Shown piece by piece: positions 6,291-17,914 of a DNA stretch of 64,000 nucleotides. The notes under the pieces were generated by a model that did no database searches, was not told where the DNA came from, and saw only the letters and a list, made by a program, of their open reading frames with translations. Origin of the DNA: Bacteroidia bacterium (lineage in GTDB: Bacteria; Bacteroidota; Bacteroidia; B-17B0; Aurantibacillaceae); assembly GCA_016787785.1 (NCBI GenBank), contig JAEUTO010000002.1, positions 1 to 64,000 on the forward strand, given 5' to 3'. How positions within the stretch are numbered: position 1 is the stretch's first letter; each line of letters opens with the position of its first letter. A program made the translations under genes and the position numbers.

Positions 6291-7133
6291 TTAACCTAAT
6301 TTGTATTCGGTTGGAGATTTACCAAAATGCTTTTTAAAGGCTTTATTAAAGTTTGGGATAGTTTCAAAACCACAATCATAAGCTATATCAGCAATAGATT
6401 TATTTTTAAATTGTAATAATTGAGTAGCTTTTTCTAACTTTTTTATTGCGATATATTTTGCAGGACTTTCTTGATACAACTCAGTGAATTTCCTTTTAAA
6501 TGTGGCAGTGCTACAATTACAAAGTTTAGCAAAATCATCTATAGATAAATCAGAATACAAGTTGTTTTGAATGATTTCATTAAAATTATATTGGTGTGGA
6601 ATAAACAAAGATTCTACAAACTCATAAATAGAAGCTGCGTTTTCACTTTTACTAAGGATCAATAATAATTCTTTGAGTTTGGTAGTAATTATGTTTTCAT
6701 CAACTATAGATTGATTATCTAACAAAAAATCAATACTATCAATAAATGATTTCATTAAGGGTTCTACATTAACTTTTATTACATCAAATTTATTTTGAAA
6801 ATGTTTTATTGATAAATCTTTCTCAAAAAACCCTTTCACCATTTCTGGATAGAAGAAAGCACCAATTACAGATATGGTATTATCTACTTTGTTTTGATTC
6901 TCACGGGTATTTTCGATAAAATAATTACCACACTTAGCTAACATAGCTTCGTTTTTGCTATAGGTTACTACATTGTTAGGAGTACGAAACTGAAATGAGC
7001 CATTAGTTAAGAACAAAAAACAGGCCTCATTCTCAGCAAAATATTTAGGAGCGCGTTTAAAATCAGTTGTCATTACCAATTTTTCAAATACACGCTTATT
7101 ATGATGTGTTATTGTTTTTTGTTCGATAACCAT
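6291..7133 (-). CDS. AraC-family transcriptional regulator
   Basis: A 280-residue protein. The C-terminal double HTH occupies about residues 185-280, with FAKLCNCSTATFKRKFTELY (first HTH) and IADIAYDCGFETIPNFNKAF (second HTH), followed by KKHFGKSPTEYK. The N-terminal half is a divergent cupin-like sensor. It heads a two-gene unit with the Crp-like regulator. The direct repeats at 5615-5646 are a plausible target; this is inference from repeat geometry only. Confidence 0.9.
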   Translation of the reverse strand: MVIEQKTITHHNKRVFEKLVMTTDFKRAPKYFAENEACFLFLTNGSFQFRTPNNVVTYSKNEAMLAKCGNYFIENTRENQNKVDNTISVIGAFFYPEMVKGFFEKDLSIKHFQNKFDVIKVNVEPLMKSFIDSIDFLLDNQSIVDENIITTKLKELLLILSKSENAASIYEFVESLFIPHQYNFNEIIQNNLYSDLSIDDFAKLCNCSTATFKRKFTELYQESPAKYIAIKKLEKATQLLQFKNKSIADIAYDCGFETIPNFNKAFKKHFGKSPTEYKLG

Positions 7134-7220
7134 TGGCTAATTCAAATTAATCTCTAAAATACGTTTTATTTTGTTTATTTATTAAATGATAGCCCAACAT
7201 TGCTTAATAGATACATGTGT

Positions 7221-7850
7221 TTAGTCTGGACTACAACAAGATTTTCCTGTTTCTTGAATAGGTGGACAAGGAACCGATCCATAGCTGCAATACACACAAC
7301 AATCACCTTGCTTTGGCTTTAACTGAGTTTTACAATTTTCACATTCATAAAAATACCGACAGGCATCTGTAGGCATTGTTTCTTCCTTTTTATGCCCACA
7401 GTTGGGGCAAGTAATGGTTGATTGGAGAATTACACTTTTGTTTTTCATAAGATTAAATATTTTTGTTTCATAATAATTCATCACTCCGGAAATCATTAAT
7501 CCAATCATTCCAATGTTAGTAAATTCATTCCCCTCGTAAGAACTAAAATAATTGTAAAACACCATACCTACAGATATAGCAGCAATCATAAGCGAAGCTA
7601 TCTTTCTGTGATGTAGAAAAGAGAACACGCTTCCAATAAATGCAAGCAGTGAAAAGCCAAGGAAAACATACATGGTTGAATTTCCGAGTAACTCGAATGA
7701 ACTATACCCAAGACTTGAGACTACCACTCCAAAGAGGGGAAAACAACAAGGTGAGGTGATTGCAGTTAATACAATTCCTATCAATCCAATTTTTTCTATT
7801 GCTGCCTTATTGTTCACTATTGTTTTTCTTTTTCCGTTCACGAATTTCAC
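7221..7850 (-). CDS. MerC-domain membrane protein fused to a Cys-rich C-terminal domain
   Basis: The first ~140 residues form a MerC-like four-helix membrane domain with the paired-Cys motif TSPCCFPLFG (about 34-43), used by mercury carriers to pass metal across the membrane. The C-terminal ~70 residues are Cys-rich: CPNCGHKKEE, CRYFYECENC, then GDCCVYCSYGSVPCPP and a terminal SCCSPD. The C-terminal block occurs as a separate small protein near metal genes in Bacteroidota, as far as I recall. It overlaps the following small membrane gene by 44 bp, which is long, so this start may be slightly too far upstream. No merR or merA is visible, so the substrate may be another soft metal. Confidence 0.75.
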   Translation of the reverse strand: MKFVNGKRKTIVNNKAAIEKIGLIGIVLTAITSPCCFPLFGVVVSSLGYSSFELLGNSTMYVFLGFSLLAFIGSVFSFLHHRKIASLMIAAISVGMVFYNYFSSYEGNEFTNIGMIGLMISGVMNYYETKIFNLMKNKSVILQSTITCPNCGHKKEETMPTDACRYFYECENCKTQLKPKQGDCCVYCSYGSVPCPPIQETGKSCCSPD

Positions 7851-12649: not shown

Positions 12650-13207
12650 TTATGGCTTGATGATTTCAGTTACTTCTGCTGAAGCAGAAGGGTCAAAGGC
12701 TTTTACTTCAACGTATTTTACATTCGGAACCCAAAAAGTTCCACCTTCAATTTTTACAAGAATATTATTTAGAATAGTCAGTTTGTTATTGATATAGCCA
12801 TATACATGGTATTTTTTATCCGTAGCGGATTTCAATAGATAGAATTGTTTTTTATGATAAGAAACAAATTCAAATGAGAATGACTTTTTCTCTGCATCAA
12901 TCATTTTAGACTGAACTCCATAAGCGTAATTTCTTTGAATGTATGTTAAAGGATCAATCTTTCCACCTTGTGCATACTTTACCCAATAAACTTTAATAGG
13001 TTCTTTTTCATTCAGATTACCAGCCTTATCTTCATTTAGCGTATAAACAATTGTATTGGCATTGATAGTACGCTGAACATAAAAGAGAAGATTATCTACT
13101 CCTTCCGGTTTAGGGTATGTATTTATCTCATTAACGTTTGCTTTGGGTGTAAACGAAGCAGTGATGATTAATACTCCCAATAAAATAAATATGTTTTTCA
13201 TTTGCAT
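12650..13207 (-). CDS. DUF4833-like exported protein
   Basis: A 185-residue protein with a signal peptide (MKNIFILLGVLIITASF) and a beta-rich body containing NLLFYVQRTINANTIVYTLN and KEPIKVYWVKYAQGGK, the features of DUF4833. The ATG at 13201 is an equally possible start. The function is unknown; periplasmic location is inferred from the signal. It lies 18 bp before dinB and may lead that operon. Confidence 0.75.
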   Translation of the reverse strand: MQMKNIFILLGVLIITASFTPKANVNEINTYPKPEGVDNLLFYVQRTINANTIVYTLNEDKAGNLNEKEPIKVYWVKYAQGGKIDPLTYIQRNYAYGVQSKMIDAEKKSFSFEFVSYHKKQFYLLKSATDKKYHVYGYINNKLTILNNILVKIEGGTFWVPNVKYVEVKAFDPSASAEVTEIIKP

Positions 13208-13500: not shown

Positions 13501-13562
13501 AAAAATTCACACTCTCAATCTTTACCTGTCTAATATAATGTAGCCAAACTTCATTGGCTACA
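13501..13562 (+). promoter_or_regulatory. Sigma-factor-type promoter plus 5' hairpin (copy 1)
   Basis: An ATTCACAC box (13505-13512) and CTGTCTAATATAATG (13526-13540) are followed by the hairpin GTAGCCAA/TTGGCTAC (arms 13540-13547 and 13554-13561, loop ACTTCA). The stem can extend by T-A and A-T pairs to 10 bp. The same block recurs at 15003-15063 before another gene with no gaps. The two boxes look like an ECF-sigma -35/-10 pair rather than a TAnnTTTG promoter, so transcription would begin at or just before the hairpin. The ATG at 13577 follows 15 bases after it. Confidence 0.7.
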
Positions 13563-13576
13563 TAAAATAAAATAAT

Positions 13577-14086
13577 ATGCGAAAAACAAGTATTTATCTA
13601 TTAACCGTATTGTCTTTAGGAATAGCTTCTATTGGCAGTGCACAAACAAACAAAAGTCAAACAAATAAAAAAATGGAAAAAATGGAAACAAATTTTAAGG
13701 AGGAACAAAAGAAAGTCTATGGTACAATTGAAAAAATGGTTAACGCTTTTCACAAGAAAGATATACCTGGTGTCTTAGCTACTTATGAAGATAATGCAAT
13801 TGTCATGTTCGAACCCCAAAAACCAGTTTCAGGTAAAGAAAATTTAAAAATGGCATTTACGCAATTTTGTGGTATGAATCCCATTTTCATATTTAGTGGG
13901 CATGAGGTTTATATTTCTGGTGATATTGCAACTCATATAGCACCATGGACAATGACAGGACAAATGCCAGACGGCACCAAAATTGAACAAAGTGGCTTAT
14001 CAATTGCAGTTTTAAGAAAACAGGCTGATGGTACTTGGTTAATGATTCAAGACAATCCAAACGGTCAGTTTTTGATGAATAAGTAG
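13577..14086 (+). CDS. Exported SnoaL/DUF4440-like protein
   Basis: A 169-residue protein with a signal peptide (MRKTSIYLLTVLSLGIASIG, cut near SAQ) and an NTF2-like domain from about residue 45: TIEKMVNAFHKKDIPGVLA, then EDNAIVMFEPQKPVSGKENL and a closing GTWLMIQDNPNGQF. It probably binds or converts a small hydrophobic compound in the periplasm. The ATG follows a shared promoter/hairpin block. The sigma gene begins 62 bp downstream, past a hairpin at 14104-14128, so it may be expressed by readthrough. Confidence 0.8.
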   Translation: MRKTSIYLLTVLSLGIASIGSAQTNKSQTNKKMEKMETNFKEEQKKVYGTIEKMVNAFHKKDIPGVLATYEDNAIVMFEPQKPVSGKENLKMAFTQFCGMNPIFIFSGHEVYISGDIATHIAPWTMTGQMPDGTKIEQSGLSIAVLRKQADGTWLMIQDNPNGQFLMNK

Positions 14087-14103
14087 TATTTTATAATTTT
14101 ATT

Positions 14104-14128
14104 AAGGGATTGCTTTTGGCAATCCCTT
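14104..14128 (+). terminator. Hairpin between the SnoaL-like gene and the sigma gene
   Basis: AAGGGATTGC (14104-14113) pairs with GCAATCCCTT (14119-14128) around a TTTTG loop, a perfect 10-bp stem 18 bp after the SnoaL-like stop. The following bases (TACTTCG) give no real T-tract, so it may be a weak terminator that lets some transcripts run into the sigma gene, or a processing hairpin. Confidence 0.55.
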
Positions 14129-14148
14129 TACTTCGTAAATTTATTTTC

Positions 14149-14949
14149 ATGGAAGAACAAGAACTAATTAAGAATTGCTTAGCTGGTGATAAGAAAAGTT
14201 TAGAAAAATTGATTCTATCTATTCAACCGCTTGTCTTTAACCTTTCATTAAGATTTTTATGGAATAGAATGGATGCTGAAGACGCCACTCAAGAAATCCT
14301 TATAAAAATCGTTACTAATTTAAGTAAATTCAGCGGTCATAGTAAATTTAAAACATGGACTTATCGGGTAGCTTCTAATTATTTAATTAACCAGAAACAG
14401 ACTAAAGTTGAAGCTGTTCTTACTTCTTTTGACATATACTCTGAGGATCTTAGAAATTTTAAGGCTCCATTGGAATACAATCTGCCTGATAAAATGCTAC
14501 TTGAAAAAGAAATGAAGATTAGTTGTACACTTGCTATGCTTCAATGTTTGAATAGGGAATTAAGAGTAACATTTATTTTAGGAAGTATAATTAAATTGAA
14601 TAGCAAAGTTGGTGCTGAAGTTACTGAGACTACACCTGAAAATTTCAGAAAAAGGCTTGAACAATCTAGAAAAATTTTAAGCTCGTTTTTAAATGGTAAT
14701 TGCGGAGTGTACAATCCTGCAAATAGTTGTAGATGCAATAAAAGGATAAATACAGCGCTATCTTGTGGTCGCATGGAAAAGAACAATCTTAGTTTCGCCA
14801 ATAAAATAGAATCTTACAACACTGAAATGGAGGAGCTGTGTTCTTTATCAGGTATATATAACAATCACGGCAAATTTAAAAGCGAAAGGGATTTTATAGC
14901 CCAATTAAATAAATTACTTTCTACAAAAAATATCATAAGTGCAAATTGA
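14149..14949 (+). CDS. Sigma-70 family RNA polymerase sigma factor with Cys-rich C-terminal extension
   Basis: A 266-residue sigma factor from the ATG at 14149; upstream in-frame codons lie in the hairpin and only begin at a TTG. Region 2 covers about residues 5-85 (LILSIQPLVFNLSLRFL, then AEDATQEILIKIVTNL), region 4 about 125-185. Unlike ordinary ECF factors (~190 residues) it has a ~75-residue tail containing NCGVYNPANSCRCNKRI and a further Cys in ALSCGR. Such a C-x7-C-x-C cluster could bind zinc or sense redox state; that is inference. It is flanked by two genes with identical promoter blocks, which are its likely targets. No anti-sigma gene is adjacent. Confidence 0.8.
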   Translation: MEEQELIKNCLAGDKKSLEKLILSIQPLVFNLSLRFLWNRMDAEDATQEILIKIVTNLSKFSGHSKFKTWTYRVASNYLINQKQTKVEAVLTSFDIYSEDLRNFKAPLEYNLPDKMLLEKEMKISCTLAMLQCLNRELRVTFILGSIIKLNSKVGAEVTETTPENFRKRLEQSRKILSSFLNGNCGVYNPANSCRCNKRINTALSCGRMEKNNLSFANKIESYNTEMEELCSLSGIYNNHGKFKSERDFIAQLNKLLSTKNIISAN

Positions 14950-15002
14950 TAAGTCTTAGTTTTAATTAGTGATTAGATAAATTTCGTTGTATAAATTATT
15001 TT

Positions 15003-15063
15003 TAAAATTCACACAAAGCAATTTTAACTGTCTAATATAATGTGAGCGAAATTCATCGTTCAC
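15003..15063 (+). promoter_or_regulatory. Sigma-factor-type promoter plus 5' hairpin (copy 2)
   Basis: ATTCACAC (15007-15014) and CTGTCTAATATAATG (15028-15042) match copy 1 with the same spacing. The hairpin GTGAGCGA/TCGTTCAC (15042-15049 and 15056-15063, loop AATTCA) sits at the same position but differs in sequence. Several stem pairs changed on both sides and one is G-T, so pairing is kept. The ATG of the SRPBCC-like gene follows 18 bases later. Confidence 0.7.
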
Positions 15064-15081
15064 TTAAATATTAACAGTAAT

Positions 15082-15492
15082 ATGAAAAAAATTAAAAATC
15101 ATGATGTTCAAAGTGTGAACATTCAAACAACAACAGAAAAGGCTTTTAAATTTATTGCTGACCCAAAAAATTTAGCCAAATGGACAGAGGCATTTAGTTA
15201 CGCTGATGAAAATTCAGCACTTATGATTACCCCAAATGGCGAGTTAAAAATTGGATTGAAAACTTTTGCAAATCCAGAATTAGGCACAATTGATTGGGAA
15301 ATGACTATGCCAGACGGAACTAAAGGTTCTGCTTTCTCAAGAGTAGTTTCAGGTCCGGATGGGAAAGCTATTTATAGCTTTGTGCTTTTGGCACCGCCAG
15401 TACCATTAGAGCAATTAGAGGGAGCATTGTCCTCTCAAATTAATACCTTGAGCACAGAGCTACGCAAGCTTGCAATTATTTTAGAAAAGTAA
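15082..15492 (+). CDS. SRPBCC (START/polyketide-cyclase-like) protein
   Basis: A 136-residue cytosolic protein with an SRPBCC pattern: VNIQTTTEKAFKFIADPKNL (about 13-32) followed by KWTEAFSYAD, a central strand region GTIDWEMTMPDGT, and a C-terminal helix QLEGALSSQINTLSTELRKL. The fold binds hydrophobic ligands in a deep pocket. It is transcribed from the second copy of the shared promoter block, so it is probably co-regulated with the SnoaL-like gene by the sigma factor between them. Both products could handle the same kind of lipid or oxidised compound on either side of the membrane (inference). Confidence 0.8.
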   Translation: MKKIKNHDVQSVNIQTTTEKAFKFIADPKNLAKWTEAFSYADENSALMITPNGELKIGLKTFANPELGTIDWEMTMPDGTKGSAFSRVVSGPDGKAIYSFVLLAPPVPLEQLEGALSSQINTLSTELRKLAIILEK

Positions 15493-15536
15493 TACGGCTA
15501 AATTATTTACATACAGCCCTTAATACTAAAAGGTAA

Positions 15537-15606
15537 GGCCTCGTTGCTATTTATGGATAGCTTGTGCGTGGTTCACCACGAATACGGTTCGAATCCGTTC
15601 GGGGCC
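15537..15606 (+). pseudogene. tRNA-like structure, probably degenerate
   Basis: GGCCTCG (15537-15543) pairs with CGGGGCC (15600-15606) as a 7-bp acceptor stem with one G-T. GCTA/TAGC can form a D arm, and ACGG-TTCGAAT-CCGT is a good T arm. The anticodon region is wrong: CGTGG-TTCA-CCACG closes a 4-base loop with extra bases before it, and the whole is about 70 bases without a usable 7-base anticodon loop. No CCA is encoded. I read it as a decayed tRNA or a tRNA fragment left by an integration event; a real but unusual tRNA is possible. Confidence 0.4.
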
Positions 15607-15781
15607 TCAAACCAATATATCTTAATGTCTATTTGGCTTCTCATTTAATAAAACATTTCAGATTCTGGTCAAGTTTATCCACTCATTTGAAAAACAAAAT
15701 TCATAAAATTGAAAACAATATAAATTACCGATTAATTCTATGGCCATCAGTTTAGAATTTACAAGTATTTCAGAAACCCAA

Positions 15782-16447
15782 TTATTCTGTAAATAATAAC
15801 AACAATTGCTTTTCTATTGAAGCAATTATATCACTTGCAACGTGTTTTTTAGATTTCAAAGGAAAGTGTTCTATTGAGTTATCTCTATAAAGAAGGCTGA
15901 TTTTATTGGTATCAAATCCGAATCCTTCTCCGTTTTCGTTAGTTGTGTTCAGTACAATAAAATCCAAATTCTTTTTTTGCATCTTTCCTGTACCATACTC
16001 AACAATATTATCCGTTTCCAAAGCAAATCCAACCGAAAATTGGTCTTCTCGTTTCACCTTGCCGAATTCAAATGCAATATCCGGATTCTTTGTTAACTGA
16101 ATGGTCATGGTGTCATCACTCTTTTTAATTTTTGAGGACTCCATTATCATAGGTCTATAATCGGCTACAGCAGCCGTAAAAATAGCAATGTCAACACTAT
16201 CGAAATAGTGCTGACACGCTTGTAGCATTTCTAATGCAGTTGTAACCTGAACAATTTTAATTTGCGGTGAGATACATTTCAAGTTTGTTGGGCCGGAAAC
16301 AAGTATTACATCCGCTCCTTTGCTACTTAACTCCTCAGCAACGGCATAACCCATTTTTCCGGACGATGCATTTGAGATGAATCTTACAGGATCAATAAAC
16401 TCTTTGGTTGGCCCTGCTGTAATTAATATCCGTTTCCCTCTTAACAT
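15782..16447 (-). CDS. coaB: Phosphopantothenate-cysteine ligase, stand-alone CoaB
   Basis: 221 residues from the ATG at 16447 (a longer frame begins with TTG inside the YceI gene). It matches the C-terminal half of CoaBC: ILITAGPTKEFIDPVRFISN (about 7-26), SSGKMGYA, FTAAVADYRP (about 90-99), KNPDIAFEFG and the KMQKKNLDFIVLN lysine motif. It joins 4'-phosphopantothenate to cysteine in CoA synthesis. The N-terminal CoaC flavoprotein half, usually fused, is absent and not adjacent. It lies 1 base after the yceI stop, an odd neighbour for a core gene. Confidence 0.85.
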   Translation of the reverse strand: MLRGKRILITAGPTKEFIDPVRFISNASSGKMGYAVAEELSSKGADVILVSGPTNLKCISPQIKIVQVTTALEMLQACQHYFDSVDIAIFTAAVADYRPMIMESSKIKKSDDTMTIQLTKNPDIAFEFGKVKREDQFSVGFALETDNIVEYGTGKMQKKNLDFIVLNTTNENGEGFGFDTNKISLLYRDNSIEHFPLKSKKHVASDIIASIEKQLLLLFTE

Positions 16448-16448
16448 T

Positions 16449-17006
16449 TTAGTATTCAATTTTCATTGTTACATCAATGGTCTTTGCAATGTTTTTTGAA
16501 GGCTTGCCTTTTTCAAATGCAATTTTATAATCTGCCAATACAATTTTAAGTTTTGTATCAACTGTAACTTGACCGCCTTTAACGGTTACTGTTCCTTTTT
16601 CATTAACAGGATTTGTCGTCTCTTTAATAGTCATCTCACCTGAAACGGTAGCATTATAAACTCCATCTTTAGTGAAGTTGATGTCTTTTAAATTGGTGAT
16701 CTTTCCCTTGAATTTTGCCTTTGGAAATGCTTTTGTATCAAGGAATTTTTCGCTGTTAAAGTGTTTTTGCATTAAGGCTTTTTTGAATTCAAAGCTTTGC
16801 ATTGGTACAGATACAACCACATCACCTGATTCCTTGCTTAAGGTGGCGGTTGATGAAAAGTTTACTGCGTTAATATCTTCCGCATCTGTGTGTGAGAAAA
16901 TATCAATTTGACTTTTCTTACTGATTAATTTATCATCGGTTTGTTTAAAACTAAATAAAGTAATTGTTCCAATTACTAAAGCGATAACTGCTGCTACTTT
17001 TTTCAT
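16449..17006 (-). CDS. YceI-family exported protein
   Basis: A 185-residue protein with a signal peptide (MKKVAAVIALVIGTITLFSF) and a YceI lipocalin-like barrel. Its hallmarks are SFEFKKALMQKHFNSEKFLD (about 87-106), followed by KAFPKAKFKGKIT and GEMTIKETTNPV. YceI proteins bind isoprenoid or polar lipid chains in the periplasm. It lies between the OB-fold protein (29 bp) and coaB, with the Cys-rich protein and the sigma/anti-sigma pair upstream on the same strand, so it may belong to that stress regulon. Confidence 0.9.
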   Translation of the reverse strand: MKKVAAVIALVIGTITLFSFKQTDDKLISKKSQIDIFSHTDAEDINAVNFSSTATLSKESGDVVVSVPMQSFEFKKALMQKHFNSEKFLDTKAFPKAKFKGKITNLKDINFTKDGVYNATVSGEMTIKETTNPVNEKGTVTVKGGQVTVDTKLKIVLADYKIAFEKGKPSKNIAKTIDVTMKIEY

Positions 17007-17608: not shown

Positions 17609-17914
17609 TTACTTCTTTTTCTTGCATTCAGCTGTGCAAGTATGACCTTTCTCACCGCATGCATAAACATGCCCACTTGATGTGCAAGCGCTTGTACAAA
17701 CATGATCTTTCATTGCTGTAGCTTTGTTCTCTGCCTTTTTGCAGTCAGCAATGCAAACATGTCCTTTTTCTCCACAGGTTGAATGACTGCTTGTAGCAGT
17801 ACTCTTGTTTGTTTCCGTTTTGGTAGTTGATTTAGTTTTGCTTGGAGCCGTTTGAGCACTGGCTGCAAAAGAAATTCCTGCTACGATAGCAAGAGTGAAG
17901 ATGATTTTTTTCAT
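17609..17914 (-). CDS. Exported Cys/His-rich repeat protein
   Basis: A 101-residue protein with a signal peptide (MKKIIFTLAIVAGISFAASA), a Ser/Thr/Lys-rich linker, and three related Cys/His units: CGEKGHVCIADCKK (about 47-60), KDHVCTSACTSSGH and CGEKGHTCTAECKK. Each carries an H-x-C-x3-C-like core, suggesting metal binding (zinc or copper) or a disulfide-rich fold. I do not recognise a named family. Its position after the sigma/anti-sigma pair fits a metal or envelope stress output. Confidence 0.7.
   Translation of the reverse strand: MKKIIFTLAIVAGISFAASAQTAPSKTKSTTKTETNKSTATSSHSTCGEKGHVCIADCKKAENKATAMKDHVCTSACTSSGHVYACGEKGHTCTAECKKKK

Follow-up and report, generated by a model that had tools for sequence, protein, structure and literature searches.

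A stretch of 64,000 nucleotides at the start of contig JAEUTO010000002.1 from a Bacteroidia bacterium, hereafter the window, contains an extracytoplasmic function (ECF) sigma factor gene that lies between genes for an exported SnoaL-type protein and a cytosolic SRPBCC-like protein. Each flanking gene is preceded by a copy of the same promoter-like block. The best explanation of this arrangement, and one that we consider probable, is that the sigma factor regulates its own synthesis, carries an on-board cysteine sensor, and acts through the two blocks on a tiny regulon of ligand-binding proteins.

A conserved motif linked to the sigma factor gene

An earlier note on this DNA had described an ungapped block of about 60 bp upstream of both genes that flank the sigma gene, and alignment bears this out. 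The two blocks, which align without gaps and lie 1502 bp apart on the plus strand (13505–13540 and 15007–15042), each consist of ATTCACAC, a 13-nt spacer, and CTGTCTAATATAATG, with equal spacing in both copies. They are identical at 28 of 36 positions over this core and at 43 of 61 over a longer stretch; no other 61-bp stretch on the plus strand of the window matches block 1 at more than 33 positions. The start codon follows the block at a distance of 36 nt in the SnoaL-type gene and 39 nt in the SRPBCC-like gene. The complete genome sequence from which the window derives (4,598,233 bases) contains two sites for the pattern TCACA-N15-16-GTCTAAT, both of which are in these blocks, and one site for the reversed pattern.

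Relatives of the sigma factor were gathered from 87 genomes of the family, 392 genomes of the phylum, 164 genomes of another class, and plasmids. The type is present in 5 of the 87 family genomes at an E value of 1e-25 (own genome included, one match partial), in at least 13 of the 392 phylum genomes (own included, with 6 candidates scored per genome), and in 3 of the 164 genomes of the other class, one of which was new. A scan of viral contigs found no relative. The motif was counted at 25 loci, namely the window, L039, L040, L064–L082, and L104–L106 (loci and genomes carry the L and G numbers of this study). Two further loci were left out: L041, in which the match has 33% identity and covers residues 1–82 only, and L083 (genome G056), in which it is limited to profile residues 17–181.

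The search of relatives for the block near this type of sigma gene, as the earlier note had proposed, returned the strict motif TGT[CA]ACA-N14-17-[GA]TCTAA 19 times, once each in 19 of the 25 sigma loci and in 0 of 24 loci with other ECF-type matches (81 kb, compared with 267 kb for the sigma loci). At the sigma loci, the reversed motif gave no match and dinucleotide shuffles gave a mean of 0.15 with a maximum of 2 in 20. A degenerate motif that admits the window copies has 24 matches, compared with 2 for its reverse, 1.55 for shuffled sequence, and none at the control loci. A strict match is lacking from six loci: the window (TTCACAC twice), L039 (TTCACAA), L040 (ATCACAC), L071 (TGTCACAC but with ATCAAA for the -10), L079 (GGTCACAC), and L076, in which no motif was seen. 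All three loci fetched later (the SRPBCC protein led to two and the sigma protein to the third) have the motif in front of an SRPBCC–sigma unit; two of these sites are strict and one reads GTCACAC with the leading T changed.

The motif usually lies upstream of the sigma operon or of the sigma gene. The nearest relatives, from Bacteroidetes bacterium 46-16 (77%) and Kordia zhangzhouensis (70%), have it upstream of a DUF4440–sigma unit and an SRPBCC–sigma unit, respectively, and in Enterococcus raffinosus TGTCACAC-N15-GTCTAAT stands immediately 5' of the sigma gene. In a tree of the sigma proteins, the window protein groups with those of 46-16 and Kordia and with that of Enterococcus, the last on a long and unsure branch. 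This grouping and the patchy distribution of the sigma type suggest that it was transferred between lineages. As separate observations, genome G021 has three sigma paralogues (L065, L067, and L068), each with its own strict promoter, of which one is accompanied by ABM-like and DUF6194 partners and two by YgaP-type membrane proteins; a homologue is also found on 14 Leptospira plasmid records (L105).

Sites away from the sigma gene are informative about specificity. Outside the window, TCACA-N15-16-GTCTAAT behaves as chance: the 87 family genomes contain 20 sites, which is below the 65 of the reversed pattern, and all six inspected of the 18 that lie outside the window overlap open reading frames (L096 at the edge only). 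Besides the 2 window sites, the 20 comprise 3 in G021 and G024, two sigma-bearing genomes in which they lie apart from the sigma genes, and 15 in 14 family genomes without a full-length sigma factor of this type. The pattern TGTMACAC-N13-16-RTCTAA was scanned in 19 sigma-bearing genomes (own included) and 18 sigma-less congeners, two sets of unequal breadth in that the former span the phylum and the latter belong to one genus. The sigma-bearing genomes have 25 sites (5 reversed), 14 of them at sigma loci and 11 distal; the sigma-less genomes have 7 (control, 4), all of which read TGTAACAC, and an overlapping frame of at least 80 amino acids was listed for 3 of these. The TGTCACAC form is found at 14 sites in the sigma-bearing genomes (8 at sigma loci, 5 upstream of DUF4440 or SRPBCC genes, and 1 in coding sequence) and at none in the 18 congeners of the single genus. 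Widespread occurrence of the block in genomes that lack the sigma gene, which the earlier note had named as the finding that would count against it, was not seen with this form; the looser one does occur in such genomes, at a frequency below chance.

Of the 11 distal sites, 5 lie upstream of DUF4440 or SRPBCC genes, 5 are inside open reading frames (L181, L183, L185, L195, and L201, which were dropped from the regulon), and 1 (G047:C43) is uninspected. Four sites (G357, G392, G466, and G470) start about 50 nt upstream of an exported DUF4440 gene, and the fifth (G764) starts 140 nt upstream of a Polyketide_cyc2 gene. Three of the four DUF4440 proteins pass the Pfam cut-off and that of G466 falls slightly under it (24.0 versus 25.2 bits); a whole-genome DUF4440 search at an E value of 1e-5 missed the genes in G357 and G466. 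DUF4440 genes are not abundant, with 0 to 14 matches per genome among the 19 sigma-bearing genomes. In the genome of the window (G000), the lone TGTAACAC site overlaps an open reading frame, as do three sites with 2 mismatches. When up to 3 mismatches were allowed in a degenerate scan of that genome, 47 sites were found compared with 58 for the reversed pattern, which gives no ground for claiming more members of the regulon there.

The sigma factor, its cysteines, and known ECF groups

The middle gene of the module encodes an ECF (group 4) sigma-70 factor with sigma2 and sigma4 regions and no sigma3. Its product matches Pfam Sigma70_r2 (E 3.7e-12) without a separate match to Sigma70_r4 and scores 57 bits with TIGR02937 over residues 17–179 (cut-off 42.9); the sigma profile aligns to the SigH (3–182), SigW (8–182), and SigE (5–182) chains. 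Five cysteines (C126, C133, C185, C194, and C196 in window numbering) are present in all 23 aligned sigma proteins, and any other alignment column has cysteine in at most 5 of the 23. All five are kept when six more proteins are added (29 of 29). The start of region 4 carries C-x6-C in every one of the 29, and three further invariant cysteines follow just past the region, where 28 of the 29 proteins read CG-x6-9-C-x-C; in that of Enterococcus, these cysteines are all kept and the loop is shorter, CGVAGGSCEC. Their invariance and placement make it probable that the five residues constitute a centre, of metal or thiol type, that ties region 4 to the tail, and this centre may serve as a sensor.

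The promoter elements had reminded the earlier reader of ECF41, and published ECF41 promoters (TGTCAC...GTC/GTT) agree on the -35 (PMC3426412). The likeness of the window family to ECF41 factors such as Ecf41Bli and SigJ includes the lack of an anti-sigma gene, a C-terminal extension, and one or few neighbouring targets (PMC3426412, PMC8999054); ECF41 promoters have a TGTCACA-type -35 and a GTC or GTT -10, to which the family promoter bears a resemblance (PMC3426412). In two species, an adjacent gene for carboxymuconolactone decarboxylase is the sole ECF41 target detected (PMC3426412). Against the ECF41-type TGTCACA...CGTC, the family -35 and GTC core are similar, whereas the window reads TTCACAC and the -10 of the family is extended to [GA]TCTAA. 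The proteins also differ. In ECF41 factors, a SnoaL domain is fused to the sigma factor and contacts its core (PMC8999054, PMC7730460); a Pfam search of the window sigma protein gave no SnoaL match, and the extension of its family is a short segment of about 80 residues in which three cysteines are invariant. The SnoaL-type protein is here a separate, exported, predicted target. The WLPEP/PWLP linker motif of ECF41 (PMC7730460) occurs in 0 of the 29 proteins. Because the fused domain and the linker motif are missing, the sigma factor is not an ECF41 member.

A cysteine-bearing C-terminal extension without an anti-sigma factor is also the design of CorE and CorE2 in ECF238, formerly ECF44, and the extension of CorE senses metal (PMC8999054, PMC3107203). 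The three invariant cysteines of the window family extension recall this cysteine-rich domain. However, CXC in the sigma2–sigma4 linker was found in 0 of 29 sigma proteins, two of the five cysteines lie at the start of region 4, and no copper-handling family was detected among 20 neighbours scanned with Pfam. Since about 85% of the new ECF238 group likewise lacks the linker CXC (PMC8999054), its absence excludes membership of the CorE type and not of ECF238 as a whole. Judged by these sequence features, the sigma factor is built like ECF41 factors and belongs neither to ECF41 nor to the CorE type. ECF42 also combines an extension with a conserved small partner beside the gene, which is YCII-related in that group (PMC8999054), but the extension here has about 80 residues rather than a 200-residue TPR domain and the partners are DUF4440, SRPBCC, or ABM proteins.

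LIC_10225 of Leptospira interrogans (301 amino acids, ECF part 21–194) is listed as unclassified (PMC12655853); we set it beside the 296-residue Leptospira plasmid homologue, a member of the present family, by description only. In the open-licence literature, no paper was found that links a sigma factor with SnoaL and SRPBCC. For ECF sigma factors with SnoaL in Bacteroidetes, the one paper found concerns hemicellulase regulation, and for ECF287/ECF288 and ECF240/ECF237/ECF264/ECF248 there was nothing beyond one review. The sensing system is apparently undescribed, and is set apart from known groups by their published descriptions rather than by the hidden Markov models of the 2021 classification.

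Partner genes, probable transcript hairpins, and a proposed model for the regulon

The earlier assignment of the two flanking genes to an exported SnoaL-like and an SRPBCC-like protein holds. The first product matches Pfam DUF4440 and SnoaL_2 (E 4e-10 and 1e-7), its matches among PDB profiles are ketosteroid-isomerase-like and NTF2-like proteins, and its N-terminal signal peptide was judged by eye. The second product gave no Pfam match when queried alone. A nine-member profile of its family matches PDB entry 2qpv (Atu1531) at E 3.5e-14, and its homologues score with Polyketide_cyc2 under the family cut-off; as 2qpv has the SRPBCC fold, SRPBCC-like is the best label for the protein. A structure prediction of this protein alone was too poor for use (mean predicted local distance difference test, pLDDT, 44.3), and no fold search was made.

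SRPBCC homologues are found in 4 of 396 genomes of the class (own included), and all four adjoin a sigma gene of this type. DUF4440 and SRPBCC genes occur together at or near sigma genes in two other genomes (L070 and G764). L070 has two tandem sigma units, and G764 has a DUF4440 gene with a lipoprotein-like start 3' of its SRPBCC–sigma pair (DUF4440 match at 1917812). In G189, a DUF4440–sigma and an SRPBCC–sigma unit lie about 2 kb apart. Pairing of a DUF4440/SnoaL-type gene with an SRPBCC gene is therefore recurrent; many sigma loci have ABM/ydhR, SDR, or membrane-protein partners instead. The notion of a two-protein, ligand-handling regulon gains from this recurrence in two other genomes and from the five distal sites described above. 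The division of labour between periplasm and cytosol that was part of it is not universal, because the frame of the L039 homologue starts without a signal peptide. The folds suggest that the partner proteins handle ligands. Separately, L066 has two SRPBCC paralogues in tandem 5' of its sigma gene (6446–7299, minus strand), one of which has a signal peptide and an apparently shortened C-terminus.

The shared block is real, but its part beyond the -10 is more than the shared sequence that had been reported: an inverted repeat lies directly 3' of each window -10. Among three copies, 4 of 9 stem pairs are changed on both sides, pairing is seen in 88.9% of cells compared with 19–50% when the copies are slid, and the covariation score is reached by 5 of 500 shuffles, three sequences being few for such a score. 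The loop AA[AC]UUCAU is conserved. A DNA operator palindrome was considered for the window copies and rejected: the arms differ between copies and yet remain complementary, which fits an RNA hairpin better than a protein-binding palindrome. A hairpin with a covarying stem is thus probably found at the start of both window transcripts. Another stem-loop, between the SnoaL-type and sigma genes, was not listed by a terminator scan; it lacks a clear T tract and so may act as an attenuator and not as a terminator.

These observations lead us to propose a model in which the sigma factor would recognise both blocks through the -35 ATTCACAC and the -10 GTCTAA, separated by a 15-nt gap counted from CACAC, and would switch on the exported SnoaL-type gene and the SRPBCC-like gene. 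Read-through of the first transcript would allow the sigma gene to activate itself. The cysteine centre, whether metal or thiol, may lock or unlock region 4 upon encounter with an oxidant, an electrophile, or a metal. Of the two proteins thus induced, one would act in the envelope and the other in the cytosol to bind or process small ligands that are hydrophobic or aromatic, and the 5' hairpin of both transcripts probably stabilises the messenger RNA or times its translation.

We regard it as rather unlikely that the sigma factor drives the blocks while its activity is set by contact with the SRPBCC or SnoaL-type protein, acting as a ligand-loaded partner or anti-sigma factor, with the cysteines holding a structural zinc. 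The partners are indeed small proteins of ligand-binding families kept beside the sigma gene, and the fused SnoaL domain of ECF41 sets a precedent for contact with the sigma core (PMC8999054, PMC7730460). Yet they vary from SRPBCC and DUF4440 to ABM/ydhR, SDR, and membrane proteins while the cysteines are kept in 29 of 29 proteins, and an exported partner would be unable to touch a cytosolic sigma factor. It is improbable that an unlinked transcription factor, or a different ECF sigma factor, uses the blocks as operators and that the adjacent sigma gene is merely another target. Although the inverted repeat after the -10 would suit an operator and the genome has other ECF factors (two more matches in G000), the motif accompanies this type of sigma gene in different genomes and phyla and was not found at any of the 24 other-ECF loci, the -35/-10 layout resembles ECF41 promoters, and the differing, complementary arms are unlike a sequence-specific operator. 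That the blocks are alike only as relics of a duplicated ancestral promoter-plus-gene segment, with no present shared regulation, is very improbable despite their identity at 43 of 61 positions and the tandem sigma units of L070, because the downstream genes belong to different families, the spacers have diverged while both elements and the distance between them are preserved, the changes in the stem are compensatory, and the motif also stands at unlinked DUF4440 and SRPBCC genes of other genomes.

Several points weigh against the proposal that the sigma factor senses through its cysteines and acts from the two blocks. The window -35 copies carry TT in place of TGT and so miss the strict family pattern; L071 and L076 lack a clear motif, the site of L079 is 3' of the sigma gene, and that of the Leptospira plasmid, about 850 bp upstream of its sigma gene, is less certain. 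The 19 strict matches are neither blind nor independent events, since the motif letters were partly learned from the first loci and the tree places several loci close together. Likewise, the DUF4440 hits in G357, G392, G466, and G470 are one orthologous gene in one genus and count as one event. No conserved anti-sigma gene was seen among neighbours that were read and 20 that were scanned with Pfam, with no dedicated search. The sigma factor structure predicted from three sequences was unusable (mean pLDDT 36.9; no fold search was made), which leaves the clustering of the cysteines unproven. The hairpin of Kordia is weak (-4.3, z -1.3) and L039 has none, and the stem-loop ahead of the sigma gene could block read-through into it.

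It is tempting to speculate that the family is an undescribed, cross-phylum ECF class in which a five-cysteine centre joins region 4 to a short tail as a sensor of electrophilic or lipophilic compounds, and in which a TGTCACAC/GTCTAA promoter serves a ligand-handling regulon of one or two operons, with the 5' hairpin as a tag of the window clade; we offer this broader picture tentatively, as a possibility. An orphan sigma factor becomes a testable system with a predicted promoter, predicted targets, five defined cysteines, and a compact regulon. Should the cysteines prove to sense the signal, the protein would be a further one-protein design of sensor plus sigma factor beside CorE. The promoter is apparently portable across phyla and would then be useful for orthogonal expression tools, and the recurrent pairing of exported DUF4440/SnoaL-type and SRPBCC proteins offers a handle on two large families of mostly unknown role.

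Features of the module and its surroundings

Table 1. Positions of genes, promoter-like elements, and stem-loops of the module in the window
Feature	Position	Strand	Remarks
-35-like element ATTCACAC, block 1	13505–13512	+	consensus of relatives TGT[CA]ACAC
-10-like element GTCTAA, block 1	13528–13533	+	inside CTGTCTAATATAATG, 13526–13540
Probable 5'-end hairpin, transcript 1 (9–10 bp stem)	13538–13563	+	-13.9 kcal/mol, z -5.8; covariation
Exported DUF4440/SnoaL_2 (NTF2-like) protein, 169 amino acids	13577–14086	+	Pfam and PDB profile matches
Stem-loop of 11 bp between SnoaL-type and sigma genes	14104–14128	+	z -4.6; possible attenuator or terminator
ECF sigma factor, 266 amino acids, cysteine-bearing C-terminal extension (C126, C133, C185, C194, C196)	14149–14949	+	
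-35-like element ATTCACAC, block 2	15007–15014	+	copy of block 1 element
-10-like element GTCTAA, block 2	15030–15035	+	inside copy of CTGTCTAATATAATG, 15028–15042
Probable 5'-end hairpin, transcript 2	15040–15065	+	-12.7 kcal/mol, z -4.5; covariation
Cytosolic SRPBCC-like (polyketide-cyclase/START-type) protein, 136 amino acids	15082–15492	+	family alignment; PDB 2qpv match

Upstream of the module, a gene for a DUF4833 protein (12650–13207, minus strand) separates it from a DinB-like gene, a label given by eye. Downstream lies a gene for a stand-alone CoaB-like protein (DFP domain, 225 amino acids; 15782–16459, minus strand). In congener G031, both the module and the DUF4833 gene are missing between the DinB-like and CoaB-like genes, and the place that matches 12650–13207 (L146) is taken by another small gene. 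This difference is consistent with either insertion of the module in the window genome or its loss in G031. A second CoaB-like copy of the genome lies in a frame of 399 amino acids (G000:C10:764793). A near orthologue of the stand-alone protein (66%) was seen in just one of 39 congeners, G031, where it is likewise a second copy; the best CoaB-like matches of the other congeners are 43–53% identical. A stretch immediately 3' of the module, at about 15536–15608 (plus strand), resembles a transfer RNA by eye in its T-arm and acceptor-like ends; this reading was rejected because ARAGORN and Rfam found nothing there. Small exported cysteine-rich proteins, possibly metal-binding, are encoded near the sigma gene in the window (17609–17914, minus strand) and in L012 (1132–1374, plus strand). 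The window protein is also rich in histidine, and both proteins may be regarded as candidate members of the sigma system.

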